From the NCBI GenBank assembly GCA_001644455.1, contig LSTF01000080.1:1-57114 (forward strand): a stretch of DNA of 57,114 bases, read 5' to 3'. The DNA is from Betaproteobacteria bacterium SCGC AG-212-J23 (lineage in GTDB: Bacteria > Pseudomonadota > Gammaproteobacteria > Burkholderiales > SG8-39). Of the stretch, positions 8,664 to 41,523 are shown piece after piece. Under the pieces are notes generated by a model. That model had not been told where the DNA came from, did no database searches, and was given only the letters and a program-made list of their open reading frames with translations. The position numbers and the translations under genes were made by a program. Within the stretch, counting starts at the first letter, position 1. Each line of letters starts with the position of its first letter.

Positions 8664-11195
8664 TCAGAGCTCGATGTCGACACTGCCGCTCGTGGCGGCT
8701 GCAGCCGGCGCGGCGGAGAGCGCGGCGCGCAACGCGCCGGCGAACTCCTCGCCGGTCTGGAAACGCTCCTCCGCCTTCTTCGCCAGCGCACGGCCGAGGA
8801 AAGCGACCAGGCCCGGCGGCACGCCGGCGTTCACGGTGCGAATGTCCGCCGGCGCTTCGTTGGCGATGCGGAACATGAGTTGCGCCATCGAATCGCCGTC
8901 GAACGGCAGCTGGCCGCAGAGCAGCTGGTAGCACGTGATGCCGAGCGAGAAGAGGTCCGAACGCCCGTCGACGCGGCTGCCGCTGAGCTGTTCAGGGGAC
9001 ATGTACGACGGCGTGCCGAGCACCATGCCGGTCTTGGTCTTGGAACTGGCGGTGAGGCGGGCGATGCCGAAATCGGTGAGCTTCAGGGTATCGCTTTCCG
9101 GGTTGTACATCATGTTGGCCGGTTTGACGTCGCGGTGCACGACGCCCTCGCGATGCGCGTAGCCCAGCCCGTCCGCGGCGCGTGCCACGAGCGACACCAC
9201 TTTTTCCGGCGGCAGCAGGTGTCCCTTCTTCGTGAACGGTACCAGGTCGCCGCCTTTCAGCAACTCCATGGCAATGTAGCAATAGTCATGCTCCTCGCCG
9301 GCATCGTAAATGGTGACGATGTTCGGGTGGGCGAGCTTGCCGGCGGTCTCGGCTTCGCGGAAGAAGCGCTCCTTCACGCCGGCGATCTCGTCGGCCTCGA
9401 ATTCCTGCGTCAGCGCCAGCGTCTTGATCGCCACCTCGCGACCGATCTTCGGGTCCTTGCCGAGGTAGACGACGCCCATCGCGCCCTTGCCCAGCTCCTT
9501 CTCCACCTGGAAGCGGCCGAACTTCGGCTTCTCGCCGACGTTGAGCTGCAGCGTGCCGCCCGGGTGCGATCCGCCGCCGAGGATCACGGTCTCGGAGAGC
9601 TGCTTGGCGCGGGAGCTCTTCTCCGCTACGTCGCGGAACTTGGCGTTGAACGCGTGGATATGACGGAACACCGCCTCGGCCTTGTTGAACTGGCGCTTGC
9701 GCTCGAAGTCGAGGCCCAGGTTGTAGAGATTGTCCGCCACCGCCTCCGACATCGGCACCTGGCGGAACTTGTCCCAGGCGAGGTCGAGCTGGCCCTGGCC
9801 CTGGTAGGCGAGGCCGAGCATGCGGTTCGACTCCGCCGAGCTTTCGTCGGATTTCACCTTTGCGCGCTCGGTGACGATGAAGCGCTTGCTGACCAGCGCG
9901 AGGTGGCCGACGAGCAGCAGCGTGCAGGCGCCCATCAGCTGCAGCCACACGCCCTGCACGCTCATCAGAGCGACGTGAGCCACGATCAGCGCGGCGACGC
10001 CGAACGCGGTGATGCTCGCCGCCAGCGAGGCATTGAGCCGTGGCAGCATGACCACCAGGTAAGCGATGACCAGCAGGAAGACGCCGAGCTCGACGCCGGG
10101 CGCCCAACTCGGCACGACGAAGAAATGCTCCTGCAGGATCGACGAGACCGAGTGCGCGAGGCTGAGTACCGGCGGCGTCGCCGCCGACACCGGGGTGACG
10201 AACGTGCCGGCGACGCCGGAGGCGGTGGCGCCGATGAGCACGATCTTGCCCGCGTACTTCGCCGCCGGAATCTTGCCGCTGTACACGTCGAAGAAGGAGT
10301 CGACCGGGAAGGCGGGCCGGCCGTCGCGGTCCTTGTAGAAATAGGTCTGCATCTCGAGCAGCGACTCGGAGCGGATGTTCAGCTTGCCGAGCGAAATGCC
10401 CTCGCCCGGCTGCACCTTGATGTCGCTGGGGCCGAGGTTGCGCGCTTTGGCGGCGATCATCAGCGACAGCGACGGGAAAAGCTGGTCGTAGTACTGCAGC
10501 GCCAGCGCCTCGGTGCGCACCGTGCCGTCGACGTCGAGCGGGTTGGTGAGGTGACCGATGGCGAAAGCGGCCTTGCCCAGCGGCTCGATCGGCGCCTCGA
10601 TCGCGATCGCCTGCCGCGCGACCGCGGCGCTGACCCCGCCCGGCACCGCATTGCGCGCGACGTACTCCGGCAGCGGCTTCTCCGGCTTGCCGACCGCCGC
10701 GCCGAGCTTGAAGTTCATCGGGATCACGACCTTGCCCGACTTCGCGTACGCGTCGGCAAGCTTGCGGTCGGTGTTCAGGTCCTGCTCCGCTTCCTTGAGC
10801 GTTGCGAGGATGGGGCTGTCCGGAGCTGCCGGATCCGCGGGCGGCGGCACGAGCGCCATGAGCTTGTTGATGTACCCATAGCCGCGATCGACCTGTGGCT
10901 CGGAAAGCAGCACGGTGCTGCCGATGACCTTCGGATTGGCGGCGGCGAGCTGTTCGGTCAGCTTCGCGAGTACGTCGCGCTGCCAGGGCCAGCGGCCGAT
11001 GTTGGCGATCGATGCGTCGTCGATGGCGATGACGATGATGTCGGCGTCGGGAACGCGATTGGAAGCCTGCACGCCGAGGTCGTAAGCCTTGCGCTCCAGC
11101 CCCGCCACGAGATCCGTAGCGCGGTTGAAGAAGACGAAGGCAACGACGACCGCAAGGCCGAGGAACCAGTCGGTCTTCCAGAAGCCGGATTTCAT
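8664..11195 (-). CDS. CHASE2-sensor Ser/Thr protein kinase (Pkn/Hanks type)
   Basis: 843 aa; CHASE2 (ANIGRWPWQRDV), TM helices, kinase domain LGKGAMGVVYLGKD...VAIKTL...VHRDVKPANMMYN...LTDFGIARL...GTPSYMSPEQ. Confidence 0.94.
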   Translation of the reverse strand: MKSGFWKTDWFLGLAVVVAFVFFNRATDLVAGLERKAYDLGVQASNRVPDADIIVIAIDDASIANIGRWPWQRDVLAKLTEQLAAANPKVIGSTVLLSEPQVDRGYGYINKLMALVPPPADPAAPDSPILATLKEAEQDLNTDRKLADAYAKSGKVVIPMNFKLGAAVGKPEKPLPEYVARNAVPGGVSAAVARQAIAIEAPIEPLGKAAFAIGHLTNPLDVDGTVRTEALALQYYDQLFPSLSLMIAAKARNLGPSDIKVQPGEGISLGKLNIRSESLLEMQTYFYKDRDGRPAFPVDSFFDVYSGKIPAAKYAGKIVLIGATASGVAGTFVTPVSAATPPVLSLAHSVSSILQEHFFVVPSWAPGVELGVFLLVIAYLVVMLPRLNASLAASITAFGVAALIVAHVALMSVQGVWLQLMGACTLLLVGHLALVSKRFIVTERAKVKSDESSAESNRMLGLAYQGQGQLDLAWDKFRQVPMSEAVADNLYNLGLDFERKRQFNKAEAVFRHIHAFNAKFRDVAEKSSRAKQLSETVILGGGSHPGGTLQLNVGEKPKFGRFQVEKELGKGAMGVVYLGKDPKIGREVAIKTLALTQEFEADEIAGVKERFFREAETAGKLAHPNIVTIYDAGEEHDYCYIAMELLKGGDLVPFTKKGHLLPPEKVVSLVARAADGLGYAHREGVVHRDVKPANMMYNPESDTLKLTDFGIARLTASSKTKTGMVLGTPSYMSPEQLSGSRVDGRSDLFSLGITCYQLLCGQLPFDGDSMAQLMFRIANEAPADIRTVNAGVPPGLVAFLGRALAKKAEERFQTGEEFAGALRAALSAAPAAAATSGSVDIEL

Positions 11196-12257: not shown

Positions 12258-13528
12258 CAGGCGGCTTTCTTCGGCGGGGTGCTGAACGCCCCGGCGCTCT
12301 TCAGAGAGGAAATTTTTTCTCTTGGATAACCCAAAACCTTTTCCAGGATCTCGTCGGTGTGCTCGCCGAGCGTCGGCGAGCGCTCGATCTTCGCGGGAGA
12401 GGCGGAGAGCTTGATCGGCATGCCGACGTTCCACCACTTGCCGCGCTGCGGATGGTCGAGCTCGACCCACATGTCGCGGCCGCGCACATGCTCGTCGGTG
12501 GCGAGATCCTCGGTGCTCATGATCGGGCCGCAGGGCACGTCGAGCGGGTTGAGGATCGCCATCAGCTCGCGCTTGGTGTACTTCTCGGCGAACTTGTTGA
12601 TCAGCGTCCACATCAGGTTCTGGTTCTTGCGGCGCTCGCCGATCTTGGAGAAGCGCGGATCGGTCGCCATGTCCGGCATGCCGACGTCGGGGCCGATCCT
12701 CTTGGCGAGGTCTTCCCAGACCGCCTCCTGCACCACGACGTAGAGCCAGTCGTTGGCGCCGTGCGGCTTGCAGTGGATGGCGTTGCCGAGCTGGCCGCCG
12801 CCGGAGTCATTCCCCGCGCGCGGCACGTCGCCCATTCCCTTGTAGGTCGGCACCGAGAACTCGGAAAGCTCGCCGCGCGTCAGGCGCTGGTGGTCGCGGA
12901 ACTTGACGCGGCACAGGTTCATCACGCCGTCCATCATCGCCACCTCGACGTACTGGCCCTGCCCCGTGTGCTCGGCCTGGCGCAGCGCGCCGAGCAGGCC
13001 GATGGCGAGGTGCAGGCCGGTGCCCGAGTCGCCGATCTGGGCGCCGGTCACGAAAGGCGCACCATCAGGCACGCCCGTCGTGCTCATCGCGCCGCCCATG
13101 GCCTGCGCCACGTTCTCGTAGGCCTTGAAGTCGGAGTACGGGCCGCTCGAGCCGAAACCCTTGATCGAGCCCATCACGATCTTCGGGTTCAGCTCGTGGA
13201 TCTTCTCCCAGGTGAAGCCGAAGCGGTCGAGCACGCCCGGGCCGAAGTTCTCCATGATGATGTGGCACTTCTTCAGCAGGTCGACGAACACCTGCTTGCC
13301 CTCATTGGTCTTCATGTTCACGGTGATCGACCGCTTGTTGCAGTTGAGCATCGTGAAATAGAGCGAGTCCGCATTCGGCACGTCGCGCAGCTGGCCGCGC
13401 GTCGCATCGCCCTGCGGGTTCTCGAACTTGATCACGTCCGCGCCCATCCAGGCGAGGAGCTGAGAGCAGGTCGGGCCCGCCTGCACGTGCGTCATGTCGA
13501 GGATGCGTACGCCTTTGAGAGCTTCCAT
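12257..13528 (-). CDS. frc: Formyl-CoA:oxalate CoA-transferase (CoA-transferase family III)
   Basis: 423 aa from ATG 13528 (MEALKGVRILDMTHVQAGPTCSQLLAWMGADVIKFENPQGDATR); adjacent to oxc. Confidence 0.93.
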   Translation of the reverse strand: MEALKGVRILDMTHVQAGPTCSQLLAWMGADVIKFENPQGDATRGQLRDVPNADSLYFTMLNCNKRSITVNMKTNEGKQVFVDLLKKCHIIMENFGPGVLDRFGFTWEKIHELNPKIVMGSIKGFGSSGPYSDFKAYENVAQAMGGAMSTTGVPDGAPFVTGAQIGDSGTGLHLAIGLLGALRQAEHTGQGQYVEVAMMDGVMNLCRVKFRDHQRLTRGELSEFSVPTYKGMGDVPRAGNDSGGGQLGNAIHCKPHGANDWLYVVVQEAVWEDLAKRIGPDVGMPDMATDPRFSKIGERRKNQNLMWTLINKFAEKYTKRELMAILNPLDVPCGPIMSTEDLATDEHVRGRDMWVELDHPQRGKWWNVGMPIKLSASPAKIERSPTLGEHTDEILEKVLGYPREKISSLKSAGAFSTPPKKAA

Positions 13529-13530
13529 GG

Positions 13531-15270
13531 CTATTTCTTCTTTGCCGCGGAGGGGTTGAGGCTGGTGATGCGGCCGCTTTCCGTTCCGGCCGTTTCGTCG
13601 ATGACGGCGTTGATCAGCGTCGGCTTCTTCGAGCGGATTGCCTCCTCCATCGCCTTGCGCAGCTCGGCCGGCGTAGTGGCGTTCACGCCGACGCCGCCGA
13701 AGGCCTCCATCAGCTTGTCGTAGCGCGCGCCCTTGACGAACACGGTCGGCGCCGGATCGCGCCCGGTCGGGTCCTTGTCCGTGCCCTTGTAGACGCCGTT
13801 GTTGTTCATGATCACGATGCACACCGGCAGGTCATAGCGGCAGATGGTCTCGACTTCCATGCCGGAAAAGCCGAACGCGCTGTCCCCCTCGATCGCAATC
13901 ACCGGCTGCCTGGTCACCACCGCGGCGGCGACGCAATAGCCCATGCCGACGCCCATGATGCCCCAAGTGCCGACGTCGATTCGCTTGCGCGGCTTGTACA
14001 TGTCGACGATCGAGCGCGTGAAGTCGAGAGCGTTGGCGCCCTCGTTGACCAGCATCGCGTCCGGGTTGGCCTTGACGATGTCGCGCACCACGTTGAGCGC
14101 GCTGTGGAAATTCATCGGCGACGGATTCTTCGCCAGCGTCTCCCCCATCTTGGCGACGTTGGTGGTCTTCTTCTCGTTGATCGCGTTCAGCCATTCCGCA
14201 GGCGGCTTGGGCAAATTCCCAAGGTTGGAAAGCAGCGCGCTGACGCATGACCCGATATCGCCCACCACCGGCGCGTCGATGCGCACGTTGCTGTCGGCCT
14301 CCTGCGGCGAGATGTCGATCTGGATGAACTTCTGGCCGCCCCAGTCCTTGTGGCCCTTGCCGCCCCAGGTCTTGCCCTTGCCGTGCGAGAGCAGCCAGTT
14401 GAGGCGCGCGCCGATCAGCATTACCACGTCGGCGCCTGGAAGCACGAACGAGCGCGCCGCGGACGCACACAACTCGTGCGTATCGGGCAGCAGGCCCTTC
14501 GCCATCGACATCGGCAAATAGGGGATTCCCGTCTTCTCGACGAGATCTTTTATTTGAGCGTCCGCTTGCGCATACGCGGCGCCCTTGCCGAGGACGATCA
14601 GCGGCTTCTTGGCGGAACGCAGCAGGTCGAGCGCGCGCTTGATCGACTCCGGCGCGGGAATCTGCTTCGGCGCCGCGTCCACGACTTTGATCAGGGAATT
14701 CTTGCCGGCAGCGGCATCGATCGACTGCGCGAAGAGCTTCGCCGGCAGGTCGAGATACACGCCGCCCGGACGGCCCGACACGGCGGCGCGGATCGCGCGC
14801 GCGATGCCGACGCCGATATCGTCGGCATGCAATACGCGGAAGGCCGCTTTCGCCACGGGTTTTGCAATGGCGAGCTGGTCCATCTCCTCGTAGTCGCCCT
14901 GCTGCAGGTCGACGATCTCCCGCTCGCTCGAGCCGCTGATCAGGATCATCGGGAAGCAGTTGACCGTCGCATGTGCCAGCGCATTCAGGCCGTTCAGGAA
15001 GCCGGGCGCCGAGACGGTGAGGCAGATACCGGGCTTCTGCGTGAGAAAGCCGGCGATCGAAGCGGCGTAGCCCGCATTCTGCTCGTGGCGGAAGGACAGC
15101 ACTCGCAACCCCGCCGCCTGCGCGCGGCGCGTCAGGTCGGTGATGGGAATGCCGGGCAGGCCGTAGATCGTGTCGAGCCCGTTGAGCTTGAGGGCATCGA
15201 TCACGAGCTGAAAACCGTCGACCGTCTGCGCTTCCGATTGTGTGGCGACTTGGGGTTCCACCGTACCCAT
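13531..15270 (-). CDS. oxc: Oxalyl-CoA decarboxylase (TPP enzyme)
   Basis: 579 aa; TPP-binding region [73 protein letters not shown] upstream of ATG 15270. Confidence 0.94.
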
Positions 15271-15323: not shown

Positions 15324-15339
15324 CTTGACTGAGGTCAAG
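15324..15339. promoter_or_regulatory. Crp/Fnr-type palindrome (site 1), oxc / crp-fnr divergent region
   Basis: CTTGACTGAGGTCAAG; minus -10-like TACCAT (15300-15295), plus -10-like TAAAAT (15344-15349). Confidence 0.8.
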
Positions 15340-15362: not shown

Positions 15363-15968
15363 ATGACTTCACTCGCCAGCCACCCACAGCGCAACAGCCT
15401 GCGCCTGCAGCTCAAGCAGAACGACATGCTGCGGCGGATAACCGCCGCCCAGTGGTCGGAGCTGGAGCCGTTGCTCACCGTCGCCGACTATCGCAAGGGC
15501 GACCCGCTGGTGCGCCAGGGCGACGAGCAGATGCAGCAGTTCTTCATCCTCGACGGCATGGTGAAGCGCGTGGTCTCCAATCCCGAAGGCCGCGAGATGA
15601 TCCTGCGCTTCGCCGCGGAAACCGAGATGGATACCTCGTACGCCGCCTGGCGGCTGCGCACGCCGGTGCCCTACTCGATCGCCGCCGTCACCAAGGTGCG
15701 TACCGCGGAACTACCCATGCCCGCGTGGGCAGAGTTCATCGAGAAGCACGCCGAGATCAAGCTGCGCTTCGAGTACGAGGTGATGAAGCTGATGTCGGAG
15801 GTGATGGCGCACACCATCACGCTGCACCTGCTCGACGCGCCCGGGCGCGTGCTTCGCTTCGAGCGCAAGCACCCCGAGCTCGTCGGCCGCATCCCGAAGA
15901 AGGAGCTCGCGGCCTACCTCAACCTCACCCCGGAGACCCTTTCGCGGCTGAAGCAGCGGCTGCGCTGA
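15363..15968 (+). CDS. Crp/Fnr-family transcriptional regulator, cysteine-free
   Basis: 201 aa; cNMP-binding-like jelly roll (RKGDPLVRQGDEQMQQFFILDGMVKRVV) and C-terminal HTH with ETLSRL recognition helix; no Cys residues in translation. Confidence 0.92.
   Translation: MTSLASHPQRNSLRLQLKQNDMLRRITAAQWSELEPLLTVADYRKGDPLVRQGDEQMQQFFILDGMVKRVVSNPEGREMILRFAAETEMDTSYAAWRLRTPVPYSIAAVTKVRTAELPMPAWAEFIEKHAEIKLRFEYEVMKLMSEVMAHTITLHLLDAPGRVLRFERKHPELVGRIPKKELAAYLNLTPETLSRLKQRLR
15922..15968 (+). repeat. Crp/fnr 3'-end repeat, copy A (functional gene end)
   Basis: acctcaccccggagaccctttcgcggctgaagcagcggctgcgctga, matched by copy B at 18293-18340. Confidence 0.85.
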
Positions 15969-15971
15969 GAA

Positions 15972-17855
15972 ATGCAGATAAGCATCGAAATATATGCCCT
16001 CGCCGCAGCGGCGCTCGGGCTGCTGGCGGCGGCAGCGCTGCTCGCGCGTCGGCTGCCGGCCCGTCTGCGCGCCGTGCTGGTGGTTGGCGCGGCCGCGATC
16101 ATCGTCGTGCTCGTCGCGCGGACCCAGCTTCGGTCCGATCTCGATCGCCTGCAGGAGCTGCGCGCAGACCACCCCCTGCAGCGCGCCGAGGACGGCTACG
16201 CCAGCTCGTCGGAGTGCCGCGCCTGTCATACGCAGCAGTTCGAGTCCTGGCGCGCGTCGTTTCACCGCACCATGACGCAGCGCCCGTCGGTAACCTCCGT
16301 GAAGGCGGAGTTCGCGGGTTCGTTGTCGCTCGACGGGAACCGCTTCACTCTGAGTCGCGACGGCGACCGCTATCTCGTCGACATGCCGCGACCGGCCTGG
16401 TGGAATGGTGCGGCGCCCGGCGGCCGGGTCCAGCGCCCGGTCGAGCTCGTCACCGGCTCCCATAACTACCAGGTCTACTGGCTTTCGAGCGGCAATTCCG
16501 CGTTCCTGGCGCAGCTGCCGTTCGTCTGGCTGGTTCATGAAGGACGCTGGGCGCCACGGCGCTCGGTGTTCATCGCTCCGCCGGGCGAGCTTGGCAGTGA
16601 CGAATACTCGCGCTGGAATGCCGTCTGCATCCGCTGCCATACGACCGACGGGCATCCGAATCTCGACCTGAAGCCGCCCGAGGTGGCGCGCAGCACGGCG
16701 AGCGAGTTCGGCATCGCCTGCGAGGCCTGCCACGGGCCGGGCGCCGCACACGCGGGCGCCATGCGCAATCCGCTGCGACGCTACGCCGCACACCTCGGAA
16801 TGCGGGGCGAGAGCGGCATGACCAATCCGCGCAAGCTCACGAGCGAGCGCGCCAGCCAGATCTGCGCGCAATGCCACAGCGTCAATGTACCGACCAACGA
16901 GGAATACGAGCACTATCTGCGATCCGGATTCCGCTATCGACCCGGAGACGATCTGGCCAGAACCCGCCGGATCGTTGCGGAAAACGGCAAGAACCTCGAT
17001 CCGGGCTATTTCTGGCCCGACGGGATGGTGCGCGTCACTGGCCGCGAATTCCACGGGCTCAGGGCTTCGCCCTGTTTCCAAGGCGGCGACTTCAGCTGCC
17101 TGAGCTGCCACGCCCTGCACAAGCCCGACACGGACCCCCGCCCCTTGCACGAATGGCGCAACGCCCAGCTGCGGCATTTCGACGAACGCAACGGCCAGTG
17201 CCTGCAGTGCCACGAGTCGCTGCGCAAGACCGAGGCGCTCGAGGCGCACACGCACCATCGAGCCGATTCGAGCGGCGCTGAGTGCGTCAATTGCCACATG
17301 CCGAACACGGTCTACGGACTCGGCAAAGCCACGCGCAGCCACCAGATCACCAACCCCGATGTCGCGCGCGACATGGCCGCCGGAAGGCCGAACGCCTGCA
17401 ACCTTTGCCACCTCGATCGCACGCTCGATTGGACGGCAAGCAGCATGGCGAGCTGGTACGGGACGCGCCGGCCGACGCTCGACGCGGACCAGCGGAAGAT
17501 CGCCGCAACCCTGCTCTATCTCTATAAGGGCGACGCCGGCCAACGGGCGCTCGCAGTGCACAGTATGGGCTGGGCACCGGCGCGGGCGGTGGCAGGCGAG
17601 GACTGGCTCCTGCCTTACCTACTGGACGCTGTCGGGGACCGCTACGAGGCGATGGGGATCGTTGCCTACCGCGCTCTGCGCCAGTTCCGGGCCGCCAGAC
17701 AATTGACCCCAGATTTCCTCGCTCTACCCCCGGAAGCGCGGCGGGCGGCAGTCGAGAAAGCGATCGGTCCCGTGGCGGGCGGTAAGCTGAGCGAGGCCGA
17801 GCTGCACAGGCTGCGTGCCACCAGGAACGAGCGCCCGATCCTCCTCAAGGAATGA
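15972..17855 (+). CDS. Membrane-anchored octaheme c-type cytochrome
   Basis: 627 aa; N-terminal TM helices; eight CxxCH motifs (CRACH, CIRCH, CEACH, CAQCH, CLSCH, CLQCH, CVNCH, CNLCH). Confidence 0.92.
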   Translation: MQISIEIYALAAAALGLLAAAALLARRLPARLRAVLVVGAAAIIVVLVARTQLRSDLDRLQELRADHPLQRAEDGYASSSECRACHTQQFESWRASFHRTMTQRPSVTSVKAEFAGSLSLDGNRFTLSRDGDRYLVDMPRPAWWNGAAPGGRVQRPVELVTGSHNYQVYWLSSGNSAFLAQLPFVWLVHEGRWAPRRSVFIAPPGELGSDEYSRWNAVCIRCHTTDGHPNLDLKPPEVARSTASEFGIACEACHGPGAAHAGAMRNPLRRYAAHLGMRGESGMTNPRKLTSERASQICAQCHSVNVPTNEEYEHYLRSGFRYRPGDDLARTRRIVAENGKNLDPGYFWPDGMVRVTGREFHGLRASPCFQGGDFSCLSCHALHKPDTDPRPLHEWRNAQLRHFDERNGQCLQCHESLRKTEALEAHTHHRADSSGAECVNCHMPNTVYGLGKATRSHQITNPDVARDMAAGRPNACNLCHLDRTLDWTASSMASWYGTRRPTLDADQRKIAATLLYLYKGDAGQRALAVHSMGWAPARAVAGEDWLLPYLLDAVGDRYEAMGIVAYRALRQFRAARQLTPDFLALPPEARRAAVEKAIGPVAGGKLSEAELHRLRATRNERPILLKE

Positions 17856-18292
17856 CGCGAATGATCGATGCGGAACCCAGGCTGATTCACCGGCACTTGT
17901 CCTTCGGCTGGACGCTCGCCGCTTGCTTTCTGATGCTCGGCCTCGCGCTGGAGATGCTGCATGGATTCAAGATCCAGTGGTACCTGGCGATGGCGAACGA
18001 AACGCGCCGCCTGCTGTGGTCGCTCGCGCACGCGCACGGGGTGCTGCTCGGCTTGCTGAATGTGGTCTATGCGCTCAGCCTGCGCAGCTTTCCAGTACGC
18101 GGCAGCCGGCTCGAGCTCGTCTCCGGCCTGGTCATCGCCGGCTCGATCTGCCTGCCGTCGGGATTCCTGCTCGGGGGCATCGTCGTGCACGGCGGCGACC
18201 CGAATCTCTTCATCGTGCTTTCGCCCATCGGCGGCGCCCTGCTGGCGATCGCCATGCCGATGGTTGCGTACAGCTTCATTCAGCGAAAGTAG
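17852..18292 (+). CDS. Small polytopic membrane protein of unknown function
   Basis: 146 aa; about four hydrophobic segments with several His (LIHRHLS, EMLHGF, LAHAHGVLLG, VVHGGD); ATGA overlap with the cytochrome stop. Confidence 0.8.
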   Translation: MTRMIDAEPRLIHRHLSFGWTLAACFLMLGLALEMLHGFKIQWYLAMANETRRLLWSLAHAHGVLLGLLNVVYALSLRSFPVRGSRLELVSGLVIAGSICLPSGFLLGGIVVHGGDPNLFIVLSPIGGALLAIAMPMVAYSFIQRK

Positions 18293-18340
18293 ACCTCACG
18301 CCGGAAAACGCTCTCGCGACTGAAGCAGCGGCTACGCTGA
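18293..18340 (+). pseudogene. Fossil 3' end of a Crp/Fnr gene (repeat copy B)
   Basis: acctcacgccggaaaacgctctcgcgactgaagcagcggctacgctga; with one A removed it encodes LTPETLSRLKQRLR*, identical to the end of the 15363-15968 product. Confidence 0.8.
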
Positions 18341-18342
18341 AG

Positions 18343-19083
18343 CTAGCCGAGGATCAGCGGAATGCCGCTGCCGATCAAGACGACGCTCAGCAGACGGCGA
18401 AACGCGATTTCGCTCAGGGTGGCGTGCATGCGATTGCCCAGCGCGACGCCGACGTACATGAGCGGCAATGACGCAGCGGTCGCAACCAGCGCTTCGCGGT
18501 CGTATGCGCCGACCGCGAAATACCCGGCACCACGAACAATGCCGAGCACCAGCAGGGTCGCGGCGACGGTAGCGCGGAACCGTCGTTTCTCGAGGTTTTG
18601 CATGTCCAGATAGATGGCGTAGAACACGCCCGCCATTGCGCCGAACAACGTACCGACGACGCCCGCGAGCGTCCCGGCGGACGGCAGCACTATGCGCCGG
18701 GGCCATTTCCACGCTGGTCGCTTGCGCAGCGATTGCCACAGCGTCACCGTACCGTAGGCCAGCACGAGCACGCCGAGGCCCTGCGCGAGCGTGTGCGCAT
18801 CAAACGCGTTGTAGAAGTACAGGCCGATCAGCGCGCCCACGATCGTGTAGGGCAGCAGCCGAAGCAATTCCCGCCACACGACATGGCGCGCGTCGGTGAA
18901 GACCACCGACCACGAGGAGAAAACCCCGAGCACCGTAAAGACCGGCACCACCAGCTTCATCGGCAGCACGAGCGCGATAAGAGGTAATGCGGCTGCGCCG
19001 AATCCGATGCCGCCGCGAAGCGCAAACGAACCGACCAGCACCAGCGCGCAATAGGCAATCTCAGGCGCCGTGAGCGTGCTCAT
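18343..19083 (-). CDS. TSUP (TauE/SafE) family transporter
   Basis: 246 aa polytopic membrane protein; GGIGFGAAALPLIALVLPMKLVVPVFTVLG. Confidence 0.85.
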   Translation of the reverse strand: MSTLTAPEIAYCALVLVGSFALRGGIGFGAAALPLIALVLPMKLVVPVFTVLGVFSSWSVVFTDARHVVWRELLRLLPYTIVGALIGLYFYNAFDAHTLAQGLGVLVLAYGTVTLWQSLRKRPAWKWPRRIVLPSAGTLAGVVGTLFGAMAGVFYAIYLDMQNLEKRRFRATVAATLLVLGIVRGAGYFAVGAYDREALVATAASLPLMYVGVALGNRMHATLSEIAFRRLLSVVLIGSGIPLILG

Positions 19084-19162
19084 GTCCGTGCCGGTGCCGA
19101 GCGGGTTACGCCGGCGCGGGCAACCGGGAATCCGGCAACGACGCGGGATTCCCGGAAGCCGA

Positions 19163-20464
19163 TTACCCCTCTCCGGTGATTCGCTTCCGGATGATGGGCT
19201 TCAGGATCAACAGGGCCATCACAGCGGCTACGATATCGAAGATCGCCGCGATGTAATAGGGCACCGAGAAGGAGCCGGCATACATTGCGGCGACCGCCGC
19301 GGCACCCCAGCCGGCCATGATGGACGCGAGCCCCTTGGCCGTGTACATGATGCCGTAGTTGCCCGAGGCGTTTTTCGGGCCGAAGACATCGCCGGTGATG
19401 GCGGAGAACAAGGCGTAGATCTCGCCCCAGGCAAGGAACACGAAGGGCATCAGGATCATGAACGCGATCGCATTGCCCGCAATCTGCGTCATCAGGAAGA
19501 TGAGCACACCCTCGAGCGCAAAGGCGAACGCCATCGTGTTCTCGCGGCCGAAGCGGTCGGACACCGTGCCCCACATGATCCGGGCGAACGCATTGGTCAC
19601 TCCCGCGAGCGTCGCCACGAACGGGACGATAGCAATCCCCATCACCTTCGCATCAAAGACGTTGAGCGATTTGGCGATCTGGGACATGTTGCCGGTCGTC
19701 ATCAGGCCGCCGGTGCACACCATGAGGAACATGGCGTACATGATGTAGAACTCTTTCTGCGACATCATCTGCACCGCGGAAAACTCCCGCCGCGTCTGCA
19801 GGACTGCCTTGGGCTGTGCCCAGTCCTTCGGCAGCCAGCCCTTGGGAGGATGATGCAGAATCATCGCCATCACGAGGGCCACCACGCCCTGGCCGATGCC
19901 CCACGCAGTCATCGCACCTGCCCATCCCATCGACGAGATGCTGCCGCTGATCGGGATGAGCGTGAGGGCCGAACCGCCGCCGAATCCGGCGGCGGTCAGG
20001 CCGGCCGCCAGGCCCCGCTTGTCCGGAAACCACTTGACCGCATTAGCCACGGTCGCGATGTAGATGATGCCGCAGCCTGTGCCAGCGAGCGCGCCGTAGT
20101 AGATATACAAGTGAAAGAGCGAAGTGGCGAACATGCCCCCGAGTACCCACCCCACAAAAATCAGCACCGATCCCACGAGCATGAGATTACGGATGCCGAA
20201 TTTATCGATGAAGTAGCCGGCAACCGGCACCGGCCAGGTCTCGAAGAGAATGAACAGCGTATAGATCAGCGCAATGTCGGAATACGGCGCGCTGGCGAAT
20301 TGTTGCTTGAGCCCCGGGGTAAATAATGTGAAGGCGTACTGGAAGTTCGAAATGACCACCATCGCCGTGACGCCCGCGGCGAGTTGAATCCAACGGTTCC
20401 CGACGATCGGACCGTAGGTTTGTTGCGCCAGATCTAGCTCAGCAGCTGTGCTCCCGTTTGCCAT
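19163..20464 (-). CDS. MFS transporter, oxalate/formate antiporter (OFA/OxlT-like) family
   Basis: 433 aa; NRWIQLAAGVTAMVVISNFQYAFTLFTPGLKQQF; about 12 TM; context with frc/oxc/fds. Confidence 0.85.
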   Translation of the reverse strand: MANGSTAAELDLAQQTYGPIVGNRWIQLAAGVTAMVVISNFQYAFTLFTPGLKQQFASAPYSDIALIYTLFILFETWPVPVAGYFIDKFGIRNLMLVGSVLIFVGWVLGGMFATSLFHLYIYYGALAGTGCGIIYIATVANAVKWFPDKRGLAAGLTAAGFGGGSALTLIPISGSISSMGWAGAMTAWGIGQGVVALVMAMILHHPPKGWLPKDWAQPKAVLQTRREFSAVQMMSQKEFYIMYAMFLMVCTGGLMTTGNMSQIAKSLNVFDAKVMGIAIVPFVATLAGVTNAFARIMWGTVSDRFGRENTMAFAFALEGVLIFLMTQIAGNAIAFMILMPFVFLAWGEIYALFSAITGDVFGPKNASGNYGIMYTAKGLASIMAGWGAAAVAAMYAGSFSVPYYIAAIFDIVAAVMALLILKPIIRKRITGEG

Positions 20465-23082: not shown

Positions 23083-23098
23083 CTTGACTGAGGTCAAG
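23083..23098. promoter_or_regulatory. Crp/Fnr-type palindrome (site 2), fhs / substrate-binding protein divergent region
   Basis: CTTGACTGAGGTCAAG, identical to site 1; minus -10-like GACAAT (23060-23055), plus -10-like TACAAT (23102-23107). Confidence 0.8.
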
Positions 23099-28765: not shown

Positions 28766-28781
28766 CTTGACTGCGGTCAAG
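28766..28781. promoter_or_regulatory. Crp/Fnr-type palindrome (site 3), fds / racemase divergent region
   Basis: CTTGACTGCGGTCAAG (15/16 to sites 1 and 2); minus -10-like GATAAT (28744-28739), plus -10-like TATACT (28786-28791). Confidence 0.8.
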
Positions 28782-34137: not shown

Positions 34138-37100
34138 CGGGTAGCGAGCACTGGACGCCTCCGGCCCAGCCAGAGCCGGAAGCGGTCGAGATAGAGGTAG
34201 ACGACCGGCGTCGTGTAGAGCGTGAGGAGCTGGGAGAGGATCAGGCCGCCGACGATGGCGATGCCGAGCGGCTGGCGCAGCTCCGCGCCATCGCCGCGAC
34301 GAAGCACGAGCGGCAGCGCGCCGAGCATTGCCGCCATGGTGGTCATCATGATCGGCCGGAAGCGCAGCATGCAGGCCTCGAAAATCGCCTGTTCAGGAAG
34401 CTTGTTGCCGGCGCGCTCGGTCTCGAGCGCGAAATCGACCATCAGGATCGCGTTCTTCTTCACCAGGCCGATGAGCAGGAACACGCCGATCAGCGCGATC
34501 ACCGTGAATTCGGCGCGGAAGGCGATGAGCGCGAGCAGCGCGCCGACGCCGGCCGACGGCAGCGTCGAGAGGATCGTCACCGGGTGCACCACGCTCTCGT
34601 AGAGCACGCCGAGCACGATGTACATGGCGAGGATCGCCGCGAGGATGAGCCACGGCTGGCGCGAAAGCGTGCCTTCGAAGGAACGCGCCGTGCCCTGGAA
34701 CGAGCCGTAGACGCTCGCCGGCACGCCGATCTGCGCCATGGTCGCCGAGATCGCCGCGCTCGCTTCCGAAAGTGCGACGTTCTCCGGGAGATTGAAGGAG
34801 ATGGTCGCCGCCGCGAACTGGCCCTGGTGATTCACCGACAGCGGCGTGTTGGTGAACTCGTAGTGCGAGATCGCCGCGAGCGGTATGCGCGCCCCCGCAC
34901 CCGAGAGCACGTACACATCCTTCAACGCCTCGGGTCCCTGCGCGTAGCGCGGATCGACCTCCATCACCACGCGGTACTGGTTGCGGTCGGTGTAGATGGT
35001 CGACACCACCGACTGGCCGAAGGCGTTGCCGAGCGTGGCGTCGATCATGTCGGTGGTGACGTTCATGCGCGCCGCGCTGGCGCGATCGATCACCAGGCTC
35101 GCCTGCAGGCCGCGCGTCTCCTGGTCGCTCGCCACGTCGGCGAGCTGCGGCACGCTCTGCAGCGCGGTCTGCAGGCGCTGCGTCCAGACGCGCAGCGCGG
35201 CCACGTCGTCGCTCTGCAGCGTGTACTGGTAGGTGCCGGTGCCCTGCCGGCCGCCGACGCGCACGTCCTGCACCGGCACGACGAAGACGTTGGCGCCGGC
35301 GATCTTCGCCAGCTGCGGCCGCAGGCGCGCGACCACCGCCGCGGCGCCCGGCCGCTGGGAGAGCGGCTTCAGCGAGATGAACATGAAGCCCGAGTTGCGC
35401 GCGCCGAAACCGCCGCCGGTCACCGCCGTGACGTTCTCGATCGCCGGGTCGGCGCGGATCACGGCCACGAACTGCGACATCTTCTCCTGCATCGCCTGGA
35501 AGGAAGTCGCCTGGTCGGCGCGGATGAAGCCGATGGCGCGGCCGGTATCCTGCTGCGGAAAGAAGCCCTTCGGGATGACGATGTACAGGTAGACGTTGAG
35601 GCCGATGGTGGCGCCGAGGATGAGGATGACCACGAACGGGTGGCGCAGCGCCCAGCCGAGCGTGCGCGCGTACCCGGCGCGCACGGTGTCGAACACCTCC
35701 TCGCTCAGCCGGTAGAAACGGTTCTCCTGCGAATTGTTTTCTTTCTTGAGGAGCCGCGCGCACATCATCGGCGTGAGCGTGAGCGACACCAGCAGCGACA
35801 CCAGGATCGCCACCGAGAGCGTGACCGCGAACTCGCGGAAGAAGCGGCCGACGATGTCGCCCATGAAGAGAATCGGGATGAACACCGCGATCAGCGACAC
35901 GCTCATCGACAGCACGGTGAAGCCGACCTCGCCCGCGCTGCGCAACGCCGCCGCCATCGGCTCCATGCCGGCCTCGATGTGGCGCGTGGCGTTCTCCAGC
36001 ACCACGATCGCGTCGTCGACCACGAAGCCGGTGGCGACGATGAGCGCCATCAGCGACAGATTGTTCAGGCTGAAGCCGGCGAGGTACATGAAGCCGAAGG
36101 TGGTGATGATCGACACCGGCACCGCCGCCGCCGGGATGAGCGTCGCGCGCACCCGCCGCAGAAAAAGGAACACCACCAGCACCACCAGCATCACGGCGAT
36201 GACCAGCGTCTTCTCCACTTCCGAGAGCGAGCCGCGGATGGTCGAGGTGCGCTCCATCGCCTCGCCGAGCTCGGCGGCGGCGGGGATCGACGCCTGCAGG
36301 AAAGGCTTGAGGTCGCGGATGCGCTGCACCGTCTCGAGGATGTTCGCGTTCGGCTCGCGGTAGATGATGATCAGCACCGCCGGCCGGCCGTTCGCTTCGC
36401 CGGCGTTGCGGATGTCCTGCACCGAGTCGGTGACCTCGGCGACGTCCTGCAGCCGTACCGCGGCGCCATTGCGATAGGCGAGCACCAGCGGCAGGTACTC
36501 GGCCGCTTCGCGCGCCTGGTCGTTGGCGTAGATCCACCACACCTTCTCGCCGTCCTCGACCAGGCCCTTCGGCCGGTTGGCATTGGCATTGGCGAGCGCG
36601 GTACGCACATCCGCGAGCGCGATGCCGTAGGCGTTGAGCGCCGACGGGTTGAGCTCGGCGCGCACCGCCGGCAGCGAGCTGCCGCCCACCGTTACCTGGC
36701 CCACGCCGCGCACCTGCGAGAGCTTCTGCGCGACGATGGTCGAGGCCGCGTCGTACATCTGGCCGCGGCTCATGGTCTCGGAGGTGAGCGTCATCACCAT
36801 GATCGGCGCGTCGGCGGGGTTCACCTTGCGGTAGGTGGGGTTGTTCGGCATGCCGCTCGGCAGCTGGCTGCGCGCGGCGTTGATCGCCGACTGCACCTCG
36901 GTGGCGGCGTCGTTGATGTTGCGCGACAGGTCGAATTGCAGCGTGATGCGGCTCGAGCCGAGCGACGAGGACGAGGTGATCTCGTTCACGCCGGCGATGC
37001 GGCCGAGCTGGCGCTCGAGCGGCGTGGCCACCGTGGACGCCATCGTCTCCGGGTCGGCGCCCGGAAGCTGCGCGGTCACCGAGATCACCGGGAAATCCAC

Positions 37101-37217
37101 CTGCGGCAGCGGCGAGACCGGCAGCTGCGTGAACGCCACCGCGCCGGCGAGCGTGAGGCCGATCGCGAGCAGCGTGGTAGCGACCGGGCGGGCGACGAAA
37201 GGCGCCGAAAGGTTCAC
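34134..37217 (-). CDS. mdtC: RND efflux permease (MdtC/MuxC-like)
   Basis: 1027 aa; [68 protein letters not shown]. Confidence 0.9.
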
Positions 37218-40200
37218 GCCGTCGCCTCTTTAACGATTTTTCTTTTTGAAAATCGATCAAATGCCAGGTAGATCACCGGGGTCGTGAAGAGCGTCAGCAC
37301 CTGGCTGACGATCAGGCCGCCGACCATGGTCAGGCCGAGCGGATGGCGCAGCTCCGAGCCGACGCCGGTGCCGAGCATGAGCGGCAGCGCGCCGAACAGC
37401 GACGCGCAGGTCGTCATCAGGATCGGCCGGAAGCGCAGCAGGCACGCCTGGAAGATCGCGTCGCGAGGCGCCTTTCCCTCGTTACGCTCCGCTTCCAGCG
37501 CGAAGTCGATCATCATGATCGCGTTCTTCTTGACGATGCCGATCAGGAGAATGATGCCGACGATCGCCACCACGCCGAGCTGGCTGCCGGCGAGGATCAG
37601 CGCGGCGAGCGCGCCGACGGTCGCGGTCGGTAGCGTCGACAGGATCGTCACCGGGTGGATATAGCTCTCGTAGAGAACGCCCAGCACGATGTACATCGTC
37701 ACCACCGCGGCGAGGATGAGGAGCAGCGTGCTCGACAACGAATCGCGGAACGAGGCCGCCGCACCCTGGAACGCGGTCTGCACGCTCGGCGGCAGGCCGA
37801 TGTCGCGCTCCACCGCCTGGATCGCGTCGACCGCATGACCGAGCGAAGCGCCGGGCGCGAGGTTGAAGGAGACGGTCGCGGCCGGAAACTGGCCGATGCG
37901 GTTCAGCACCAGCGGCGCGGAGCCGGTGGTGAACTGCGCGATCGACGAGAGCGGCACTTGCACGCCGTTCGTGCCGGCGACGTAGACGTCGCCGAGCGAT
38001 TGCGGGCCCGAGCGGTATTCGGGCTTCACCTCCAGCACCACCCGGTACTGCGTCGCCTGGGTGAAGATGGTCGAGATCAGGCGCTGGCCGAAGGCGTTGT
38101 AGAGCGCGGTGTCGACTGCCGCCGGGGTGATGCCCAGCCGCCCGGCGCTGTCGCGGTCGATGTCGACGTAGGCCTGCAGCCCCTGGTTCTGCAAGTCGGA
38201 AGCGACGTCGGTGAGCTGCGGCAACTGCCGCAGGCGATCGACGAGGCGCGGCGTCCATTCGTCGAGAAGGTCGCCGTCCGCGGCCTCCAGCGTGTATTGG
38301 TACTGCGTGCGGCTGACGCGGTCCTCGACGGTGAGGTCCTGCACGGGCTGCATGTAGAGCGTGATGCCGGGGACCTTCGCAAGCTCGGGCTGCAGCCTGC
38401 GGATCACGTCCGAGGCGTGCACGCCGCCGCGCTCGGCGAGCGGCTTCAGGTTGATCAGCATCCGGCCGCTGTTCAGGCTGACGTTCGAGCCGTCGACGCC
38501 GATGAAAGAGGAAAGACTCGCCACCGCCGGGTCCTGCAGCACAACGTGCGCCGCCGCCTGCTGGCGCTCGGCCATGGCCGGGAACGACACGGTCTGCGGC
38601 GCTTCCGAGATGCCCTGGATCACGCCCGTGTCCTGCACCGGGAAGAAGCCCTTCGGCACGACGATGTAGAGCAGCACCGTGAGGACGAGCGTCGCGGCGG
38701 CGACGAGCAGCGTCGCCACCTGCCGGTCGAGCACCCAGTCGAGGGCCCGGCCATAGCGCGCGATCACGTCGTCGAAGATGCGCTGCGTGAAAGCATAGAG
38801 CCGGTTTTTTTCGGAATCCTGTTGTTTGGACAGCAGGCGAGCGCACATCATCGGCGTAAGCGTCAGCGAGACCACCGCCGAAATCAGGATCGACACCGCC
38901 AGCGTCACCGCGAACTCGCGGAACAGGCGCCCGACCACGTCGCCCATGAAGAGCAGCGGGATCAGCACCGCCACCAGCGAGAAAGTGAGCGAGATGATGG
39001 TGAAGCCGATCTCGCGCGAGCCCTTGAGCGCCGCCTCGAGCGGCGGCGTGCCCTCCTCGATGTGCCGCGCGATGTTCTCGATGACCACGATCGCGTCGTC
39101 GACGACGAAGCCCGCGGCCACGACCAGCGCCATCAGCGTCAGGTTGTTGATCGAGAAGCCGGCGAGATACATGAAGCCGAAGGTGCCGATCAGCGAGACC
39201 GGAACTGCCACGCTCGGAATGACGGTGGCCGGAATACTTCTTAGAAAGACAAAAATGACGGCGACCACCAGGCCGACGGCGAGCAGCAGCTCGACCTGCA
39301 CGTCGTGCACCGAAGCGCGGATGGTGACGGTGCGATCGGTGAGCACCGCGACGTCGACCGACGCCGGCAGCGATGCCTGCAGCTGCGGCAACTGCCGCTT
39401 GATCCGGTCCACCACCTCGATCACGTTGGCGCCGGGCTGGCGCTGGATGTTGAGGATGATCGCCGGCACCTCGTTCATCCACGCCGCGAGGCGCACGTTC
39501 TCGGCGTCGTCGACGATGTCGGCGACGTCGGACAGATAGACCGGCGCGCCGTTCTTGTAGGCGACGACCACGCTCTTGTATTCCTCGGCCGAGCGAAGCT
39601 GGTCGTTGGCGTCGATGTTGTAGGCGCGGCTCGGGCCCTCGAGGCTGCCCTTGGCCCGCTTCACGTTGGCGGCGGCGATCGCGCCCCTCACGTCTTCGAG
39701 CCCGAGCCCGGCGGCGGCGATCGCCTTCGGGTTCACCTGCACGCGCACCGCCGGCCGCTGGCCGCCCGAGAGCGTCACCAGGCCGACGCCGGCGACCTGC
39801 GAGAGCTTCTGCGCGAGGCGCGTGTCGGCGAGGTTCTGGATCTCGGGCAGCGTCAGCGTGCGCGACGAAAGCCCGAGCGTGAGGATCGGCGCGTCGGCGG
39901 GATTCACCTTGCTGTAGACCGGCGGCGCGGGCAGGTCGGCGGGCAGCAGGTTCGAGCCGGCATTGATCGCCGCCTGCACGCCCTGCTCGGCGACGTCGAG
40001 CGGAATGGCGAGGTCGAACTGCAGCGTCACCACCGAGGCGCCGCCCGAGCTCGACGAGAGCATCTGCTTCAGGCCCGGGATCTGACCGAGCTGGCGCTCG
40101 AGCGGCGCGGTCACCGACGAGGCCATCACCTCGGGGCTCGCGCCGGGATAAAAAGTGAAGGTCTGGATCGTCGGGTAGTCGACCTGCGGCAGCGCCGAGA

Positions 40201-40300
40201 TCGGCAGCAGCCGGTAGGCGAAGGCGCCGGAAAGCAGCACGGCGACCATGAGCAGCGTGGTCGCCACCGGCCGGCGAATGAAAAGGCTCGAAGGATTCAT
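37214..40300 (-). CDS. mdtB: RND efflux permease (MdtB/MuxB-like)
   Basis: 1028 aa from [71 protein letters not shown] track start (41821) is over-extended. Confidence 0.9.
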
Positions 40301-41523
40301 TCCTTCTTTTTCCCCTTGCCTTTCCCTTTGCGGGCCCCATCGGGCGGCGGCTTGATCTCGGGGCGCGCGCCGGTCACCTCGACCTGCGCGCCCGGCCGCA
40401 GCCGGTCCATGCCATCGACCACCACGACTTCGCCCGCGGCGAGGCCGTCGCTCACCGCCACGCGCTGCGTCTCGGCCGGGCCGAGCTTCACCACGCGCTG
40501 CGTGACCGTGTTGTCGGGCCGCACGACGTAGACGAAGAGGCCCTGCGAGCCGCGCTGCACCGCCGCGGGCGGGATGGTCACCACGTCGACCAGGCGGTCG
40601 AGCTTCATGCGCACGTTGACGAATTGATTGGGAAAGAGGCCCGCGTCCTCGTTGCCGAACTGCGCCTTGAGCTTCACCGTGCCGGTCGTGGGATCGACCT
40701 GGTTGTCGGCCGAGACGAGCAGGCCGTCCGCCAGTTTCGTTTTCTGCTCCCGGTCCCAGGCCTCGACCGGGATCTGCTCGCCGGACTGCAGGCGGCGCAT
40801 CACCACCGGCACGCTGTCCTGCGGCACCGTGAACAGCACCGCGACCGGCTGCAATTGCGTGATCACCAGCAGGCCGTTGGCGTCGCCCGAGCGCACGATG
40901 TTGCCCTGGTCGACGAGGCGCAGGCCGACGCGACCGGCGACCGGCGCGGTGATCCGCGTGTAGGCGAGCTGCAGCTTCGCGTTGTCGATCTGGCTGCGGT
41001 CGACGCGCACCGCGCCCTCGTACTGGCGCACCAGGGAGAGCTGCGTGTCGACCTGCTGCTTGGCGATCGAGTCCTGCTTGAACAGCGTCTGGTAGCGCTG
41101 CAGGTCGAGCTTCGCGTTCTCGAGCAGCGCGCGGTCCCGGGCGAGCTGGCCCTCGGCCTGCTCGAGCTGCACCTTGAAGGCGCGGGGATCGATCTCGGCG
41201 AGCAGCTCGCCCTCCTTCACCAGCTGCCCTTCCTGGAAGAGCACGCGGATCAGCTCGCCGTCGACGCGCGAGCGCACCGTGACCGTGCGCAGCGGCGTCA
41301 CCGTGCCGAGGCCGCTCATGACGATGTCGACGCTGCCGAGCACGGCCGGCGCACCGACCACCGGCGTCGGCCCGCCGCCCGCGGCGCCGCCGCGGCCCTT
41401 CTGCAGCGGCACCGGCGCCGACGACGCGCCGGCGCTCCAGTACTCGCGATACACCCACCAGGCCGCGCCGGCGACCAGGGCGAGGCTGACGAGGACGAGG
41501 ATGAGCTTGCCGGTGCGCCCCAT
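40297..41523 (-). CDS. mdtA: RND periplasmic adaptor (MdtA-like)
   Basis: 408 aa; [58 protein letters not shown]. Confidence 0.9.

Follow-up and report, generated by a model that had tools for sequence, protein, structure and literature searches.

Two genes, encoding an octaheme c-type cytochrome and a small membrane protein, lie between the intact 3' end of a crp/fnr regulator gene and the remnant of a second such end; as a moderately probable explanation, we propose that recombination of two sister crp alleles joined them to the regulator, the right-hand joint being non-homologous. The window, by which we mean the whole 57,114-nt stretch analysed, comes from a 60%-complete draft genome in 123 contigs. 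Its crp locus is an unusually readable fossil, in which foreign genes appear welded behind a regulator with no visible mobile-element machinery.

The repeated tail of the regulator gene

The locus contains the following features:

12260..13540, minus strand: frc, formyl-CoA:oxalate CoA-transferase-like (name presumed from family knowledge); conserved left flank, syntenic in nearly all relatives at 78-92% amino acid identity
13531..15270, minus strand: oxc, oxalyl-CoA decarboxylase (TIGR03254, E 7.8e-295); conserved left flank, syntenic in relatives
15325..15338, no strand assigned: FNR-like box TTGACTGAGGTCAA (TTGA-N6-TCAA) in the oxc/crp divergent promoter region
15363..15968, plus strand: intact gene for a 201-aa Crp/Fnr-family regulator (PF00027; most family genomes have an orthologue, at 64-86%)
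15922..15968, plus strand: copy A, the functional crp/fnr 3' end, from the tail alignment
15972..17855, plus strand: octaheme c-type cytochrome, 627 aa (8 CXXCH; Cytochrome_C554/C7 Pfam matches)
17852..18292, plus strand: small membrane protein, 146 aa, overlapping the cytochrome stop (ATGA)
18293..18340, plus strand: copy B, what is left of a second crp/fnr 3' end, with an additional A, from alignment, translation and a family-wide pattern search
18343..19083, minus strand: TSUP (TauE/SafE) transporter, convergent (PF01925, E 1.4e-31)
19163..20464, minus strand: OxlT-type oxalate/formate antiporter (MFS), right flank (TIGR04259, above cut-off)

The Crp/Fnr gene ends in 47 nt (15922-15968) that reappear as 48 nt at 18293-18340, and every detail of this repeat in the original prediction was recovered: six substitutions (ACC/ACG, GAG/GAA, ACC/ACG, CTT/CTC, CGG/CGA, CTG/CTA), all at third codon positions, and an inserted A. 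With the extra A taken out all six changes are synonymous and both copies encode LTPETLSRLKQRLR*. The repeat is not due to chance: copies A and B align locally with a score of 32, whereas A scores no more than 15 anywhere else in the window; a 33-nt pattern allowing up to three mismatches is expected 0.00 times in shuffles; and a degenerate tail pattern, again with up to three mismatches, matched at these two sites only across 98 whole genomes of the family. The suggested check for this tail beside other cargo gave none in those 98 genomes, and no comparable tail duplication at the crp of relatives rose clearly over the control level.

The longest identical run between the copies is 14 nt. The interval from the crp stop to copy B (15969-18292) spans 2324 bp; the cytochrome gene begins 3 nt past the crp stop, in crp's frame, and copy B starts directly after the stop of the membrane-protein gene, with crp homology beginning abruptly at 18293. 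The TSUP stop codon lies 2 nt from copy B, and TSUP, the OxlT-type MFS, TerC and fhs follow to the right, all on the minus strand (TerC and fhs presumably, from family knowledge).

Elsewhere in the window, a strong hairpin occupies 19119-19160 in the gap between TSUP and OxlT (region z -3.37, plus strand) and is perhaps a terminator lacking a T run. A tandem duplication of ~3 kb at 34195-40306, with 71-81% identity, probably represents paralogous transporter genes, and a long ORF at 8664-11195 reads by eye as a fusion of sensor domain, TPR and serine/threonine kinase.

Empty sites in relatives and the foreign gene pair

We compared orthologous loci from 40 other genomes of the family. The order frc-oxc-crp is kept in nearly all of them, and a convergent transporter gene, which we presume from family knowledge to be of tripartite type or MFS, commonly has its end no more than ~60 nt from the crp stop, and TerC and fhs often come next. 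In none of the 40 does an octaheme cytochrome gene, the membrane gene or TSUP stand behind crp; the predicted 2.3 kb cassette is thus missing from all these loci, and no relative carries it, with or without the repeat. Judged by gene content an empty site does exist, because L060, a genome of another genus, carries the window's OxlT gene directly after crp: 1 nt separates the crp TGA from the stop of its OxlT gene, which shares 92% identity with the window's. The empty site had been envisaged as crp directly followed by TSUP, an arrangement present in no relative; the best TSUP homologue in the family, at 43%, stands at another place in its genome. Because TSUP is also missing from the locus in all relatives, the lineage-specific block extends from 15969 to ~19160 (3.2 kb), and copy B lies within this block, short of its outer edge. 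Copy B, 2 nt before the stop of a convergent transporter gene, occupies the canonical position of the crp 3' end in this family; by synteny the anomalous one of the two tails is copy A, which is followed by a codirectional gene.

Among relatives L040-L079 the convergent transporter behind crp has been swapped: most carry the tripartite type, some of the genus carry one MFS type, and the window shares its OxlT type with L060. Genomes of the window's own genus carry behind crp an MFS 39% identical to the window's OxlT, or a different transporter. From its identities (92% to the other genus, 39% to the congeners' MFS), the window's OxlT-type MFS is a probable case of transfer. The locus is a mosaic, because the closest relatives of its genes come from different genera: G006 for oxc and fhs, and other genera for frc and OxlT. 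In a tree, the window crp groups with genomes of its own genus.

Eight CXXCH motifs within 15972..17855 confirm the predicted octaheme cytochrome. Its nearest relatives are 21-32% identical overall, at most ~32% over its length in the family; 399 genomes of the order gave no hit at E<=1e-40, GTDB contigs gave distant relatives only (21-28% along the alignment), and the plasmid matches listed were at 25-29%. No close donor of the cytochrome, and no second strain or donor genome with the cassette, was found in the 98 family genomes, the 399 order genomes, GTDB contigs or plasmids. On this homology evidence the cytochrome and membrane genes are foreign to the family. The protein resembles octaheme TPR cytochromes in having eight CXXCH motifs in register, with invariant heme and neighbouring residues in a 12-sequence alignment, but differs in its low identity (21-28% over the alignment), in its length (627 aa versus about 730-860 aa, so ~100-235 aa shorter), and in its place downstream of a regulator gene and next to an unrelated membrane gene; TPR repeats were not matched in Pfam. 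The 146-aa membrane protein has no Pfam or NCBIfam match and two distant homologues in the order sample (34-35%), with no heme protein near either in the DNA fetched. In low-confidence models the C-terminus of the cytochrome is helical and the membrane protein mostly helical, and mean pLDDT values of 58 and 50 are too poor for a fold search.

Origin of the second tail

Copies A and B look, from their tails, like alleles of sister species or strains. Five of 11 fourfold sites differ, the level seen between species of the family (0.34-0.51), and both copies end in QRLR*, a C-terminus found in 0 of 51 other distinct orthologues; even congeners differ in their final residues. Two orthologues have the same tail only when they are at least 94% identical, and pairs that are 93-97% identical differ at 1-6 of 11 conserved codons, A and B at 5. 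If the two are such close sisters, deep divergence is not needed; the original suggestion of recombination between divergent alleles therefore survives as allele exchange, which we prefer, but between sister alleles sharing QRLR*, not deeply diverged ones.

Decay of B after copying from A would be expected to produce nonsynonymous changes. A codon model over 14 codons favoured divergence under constraint before the cut, with 2dlnL of 7.6-8.6 over decay in all six parameter sets, although it took all codons as equally constrained and so overstates the case for selection. A simple unpolarised test of the synonymous-only pattern gave ~0.016 by hand estimate; counting only changes that appear derived in B, the hand estimate was 0.04-0.12. 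By eye, against congeners, GAA, CGA and CTA look derived in copy B, all three G to A, which leaves only three changes with a direct bearing on decay in B. The predicted purifying selection thus has the codon model on its side, but the comparison comprises 14 comparable codons and six differences, and the argument is weaker than was stated.

We suggest the following course of events. In the ancestral locus, crp would have ended a few nt before a convergent transporter gene. The cytochrome and membrane-protein genes would have been fused to the crp 3' end via two closely related crp alleles, one joint falling inside homologous crp sequence, and hence being invisible, and the other, at 18292/18293, being non-homologous and stranding the last 47-48 nt of one allele beside its old convergent neighbour. 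The outcome would be the row of crp, cytochrome and membrane genes that now stands on one strand, with a 3-nt gap and then an ATGA overlap. The absence of a known donor does not exclude this mechanism. Block identities along crp and the ratio of crp to neighbour distances are ordinary, with no breakpoint or unusual divergence detected within crp by either measure; on the same grounds we dismiss a foreign crp body, and the plasmid search returned no crp. TSUP is itself lineage-specific, and at least one more event is needed to account for it.

The rare QRLR* end common to both copies would also follow if the insertion had produced a duplicate of the resident crp tail, say through template switching or through fill-in repair at the break, and copy B had then drifted as a dead sequence. 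The three G to A changes and the inserted A fit such a decaying copy, but all six differences are synonymous, the codon model disfavours self-copying in every parameter set, and a between-species divergence at fourfold sites coincides with zero first- or second-position changes; we regard self-copying as a rival to be taken seriously, but distinctly less probable than allele recombination. The row of crp, cytochrome and membrane genes could instead be the older state, with a sister species' crp tail and TSUP joined later behind the membrane gene. The geometry and divergence would equal those expected from insertion of the pair, copy B with TSUP has the canonical form of crp and a convergent transporter, and TSUP, like the pair, is missing from all relatives here. 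Among the relatives searched, however, no sister carries the cytochrome pair or has TSUP directly behind crp, and the cytochrome, having no close relatives, makes the pair the more obviously foreign side; we therefore prefer entry of the pair to arrival of the TSUP side with copy B, which seems unlikely.

The original prediction had also offered an att-like scar, and a directly repeated gene 3' end that brackets an insert and restores the functional gene is what site-specific integration of a small cassette or island carrying its own tail would leave. We consider this very improbable: no integrase is encoded on the contig (the genome's Phage_integrase matches are on other contigs), exact sharing is limited to 14 nt, no other copy of the tail occurs in 98 genomes, and the relatives hold nothing similar. 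The overall interpretation, cassette insertion with a displaced tail, is largely sound as an outline, but its att-type version is unlikely. The interval consists of two genes, neither a transposase, in agreement with the prediction of no integrase or IS inside; we rejected an IS or transposon cassette for this reason and because the 47-48-nt repeat is not exact. Least probable of all is that copy B is a regulatory or terminator element whose likeness to crp is incidental. Folding of its minus strand is slightly stronger than in shuffles (z -1.64), but the plus-strand fold is not significant (z 0.39), no terminator is called there, the sequence recurs nowhere else in 98 family genomes, and it matches the crp tail, in register with the stop, save for six substitutions and one base. 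An assembly chimera is unlikely, both flanks being syntenic and the longest exact match between the copies being 14 nt, too short for the usual assembly join. We would also give little credence to a broader view of the crp 3' end at oxalate loci as a preferred, integrase-free docking place, where cargo is captured in-operon, under an Fnr-type regulator that responds to oxalate, with recurrent tail replacement.

Regulatory context and known systems

A TTGA-N6-TCAA box lies upstream of crp in 41 of 41 loci compared. Three boxes of the form TTGAC-TG(A/C)G-GTCAA occur in the window: at 15325-15338; at 23084-23097, between fhs and an ABC-type substrate-binding protein gene; and at 28767-28780, upstream of a formate dehydrogenase gene set, the genes at the latter two boxes being named by inference from their translations. 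These boxes suggest an oxalate/formate regulon under a cysteine-free Fnr-type regulator, and from their placement the window Crp/Fnr is probably an Fnr-type regulator of oxalate and formate use. A literature search found no Fnr-type regulator of oxalate genes. Because they share a strand, a 3-nt gap and a gene overlap, the new genes are probably co-transcribed with crp from the promoter that bears the FNR-like box and controls the oxalate genes. An octaheme cytochrome pair, so far unstudied, would thereby have been placed under an oxalate regulator; the cytochrome may have a redox role in oxalate/formate metabolism, with electron transfer as the default guess.

Tyrosine recombinases integrate islands at gene 3' ends, duplicating and restoring the gene end. 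The window insert is likewise flanked by a duplicated gene 3' end, with the gene end restored, but it differs from such islands in having no integrase, no identical core longer than 14 nt and no other occupied site. The closer parallel is homology-facilitated illegitimate recombination, in which one end is joined by homology and the other by a non-homologous joint (PMC3240628). The geometry of the window locus fits this, with little or no homology at the right joint. On the other side crp is homologous in all relatives but shows no visible breakpoint, and copy B has the canonical place before a convergent transporter stop, but beside a TSUP that is itself lineage-specific. Unlike that system, the event is proposed from sequence only, with no locatable homologous joint and no donor among the genomes searched. 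Such recombination has been proposed for the displaced 3' remnants of Vibrio cholerae T6SS effector-immunity arrays and Rhs loci (PMC5361080). There a complete immunity gene is usually left over and displacement happens repeatedly, whereas the window shows a single case, in a metabolic locus, with 48 nt of a dead gene end left behind. In both, on the reading proposed for the window, a new module enters behind a conserved part of a gene and the old 3' end is orphaned downstream. Displaced gene ends after gene exchange are already known, and the general picture is unchanged: the event is of an ordinary kind, well preserved, a scar of exchange between related bacteria.
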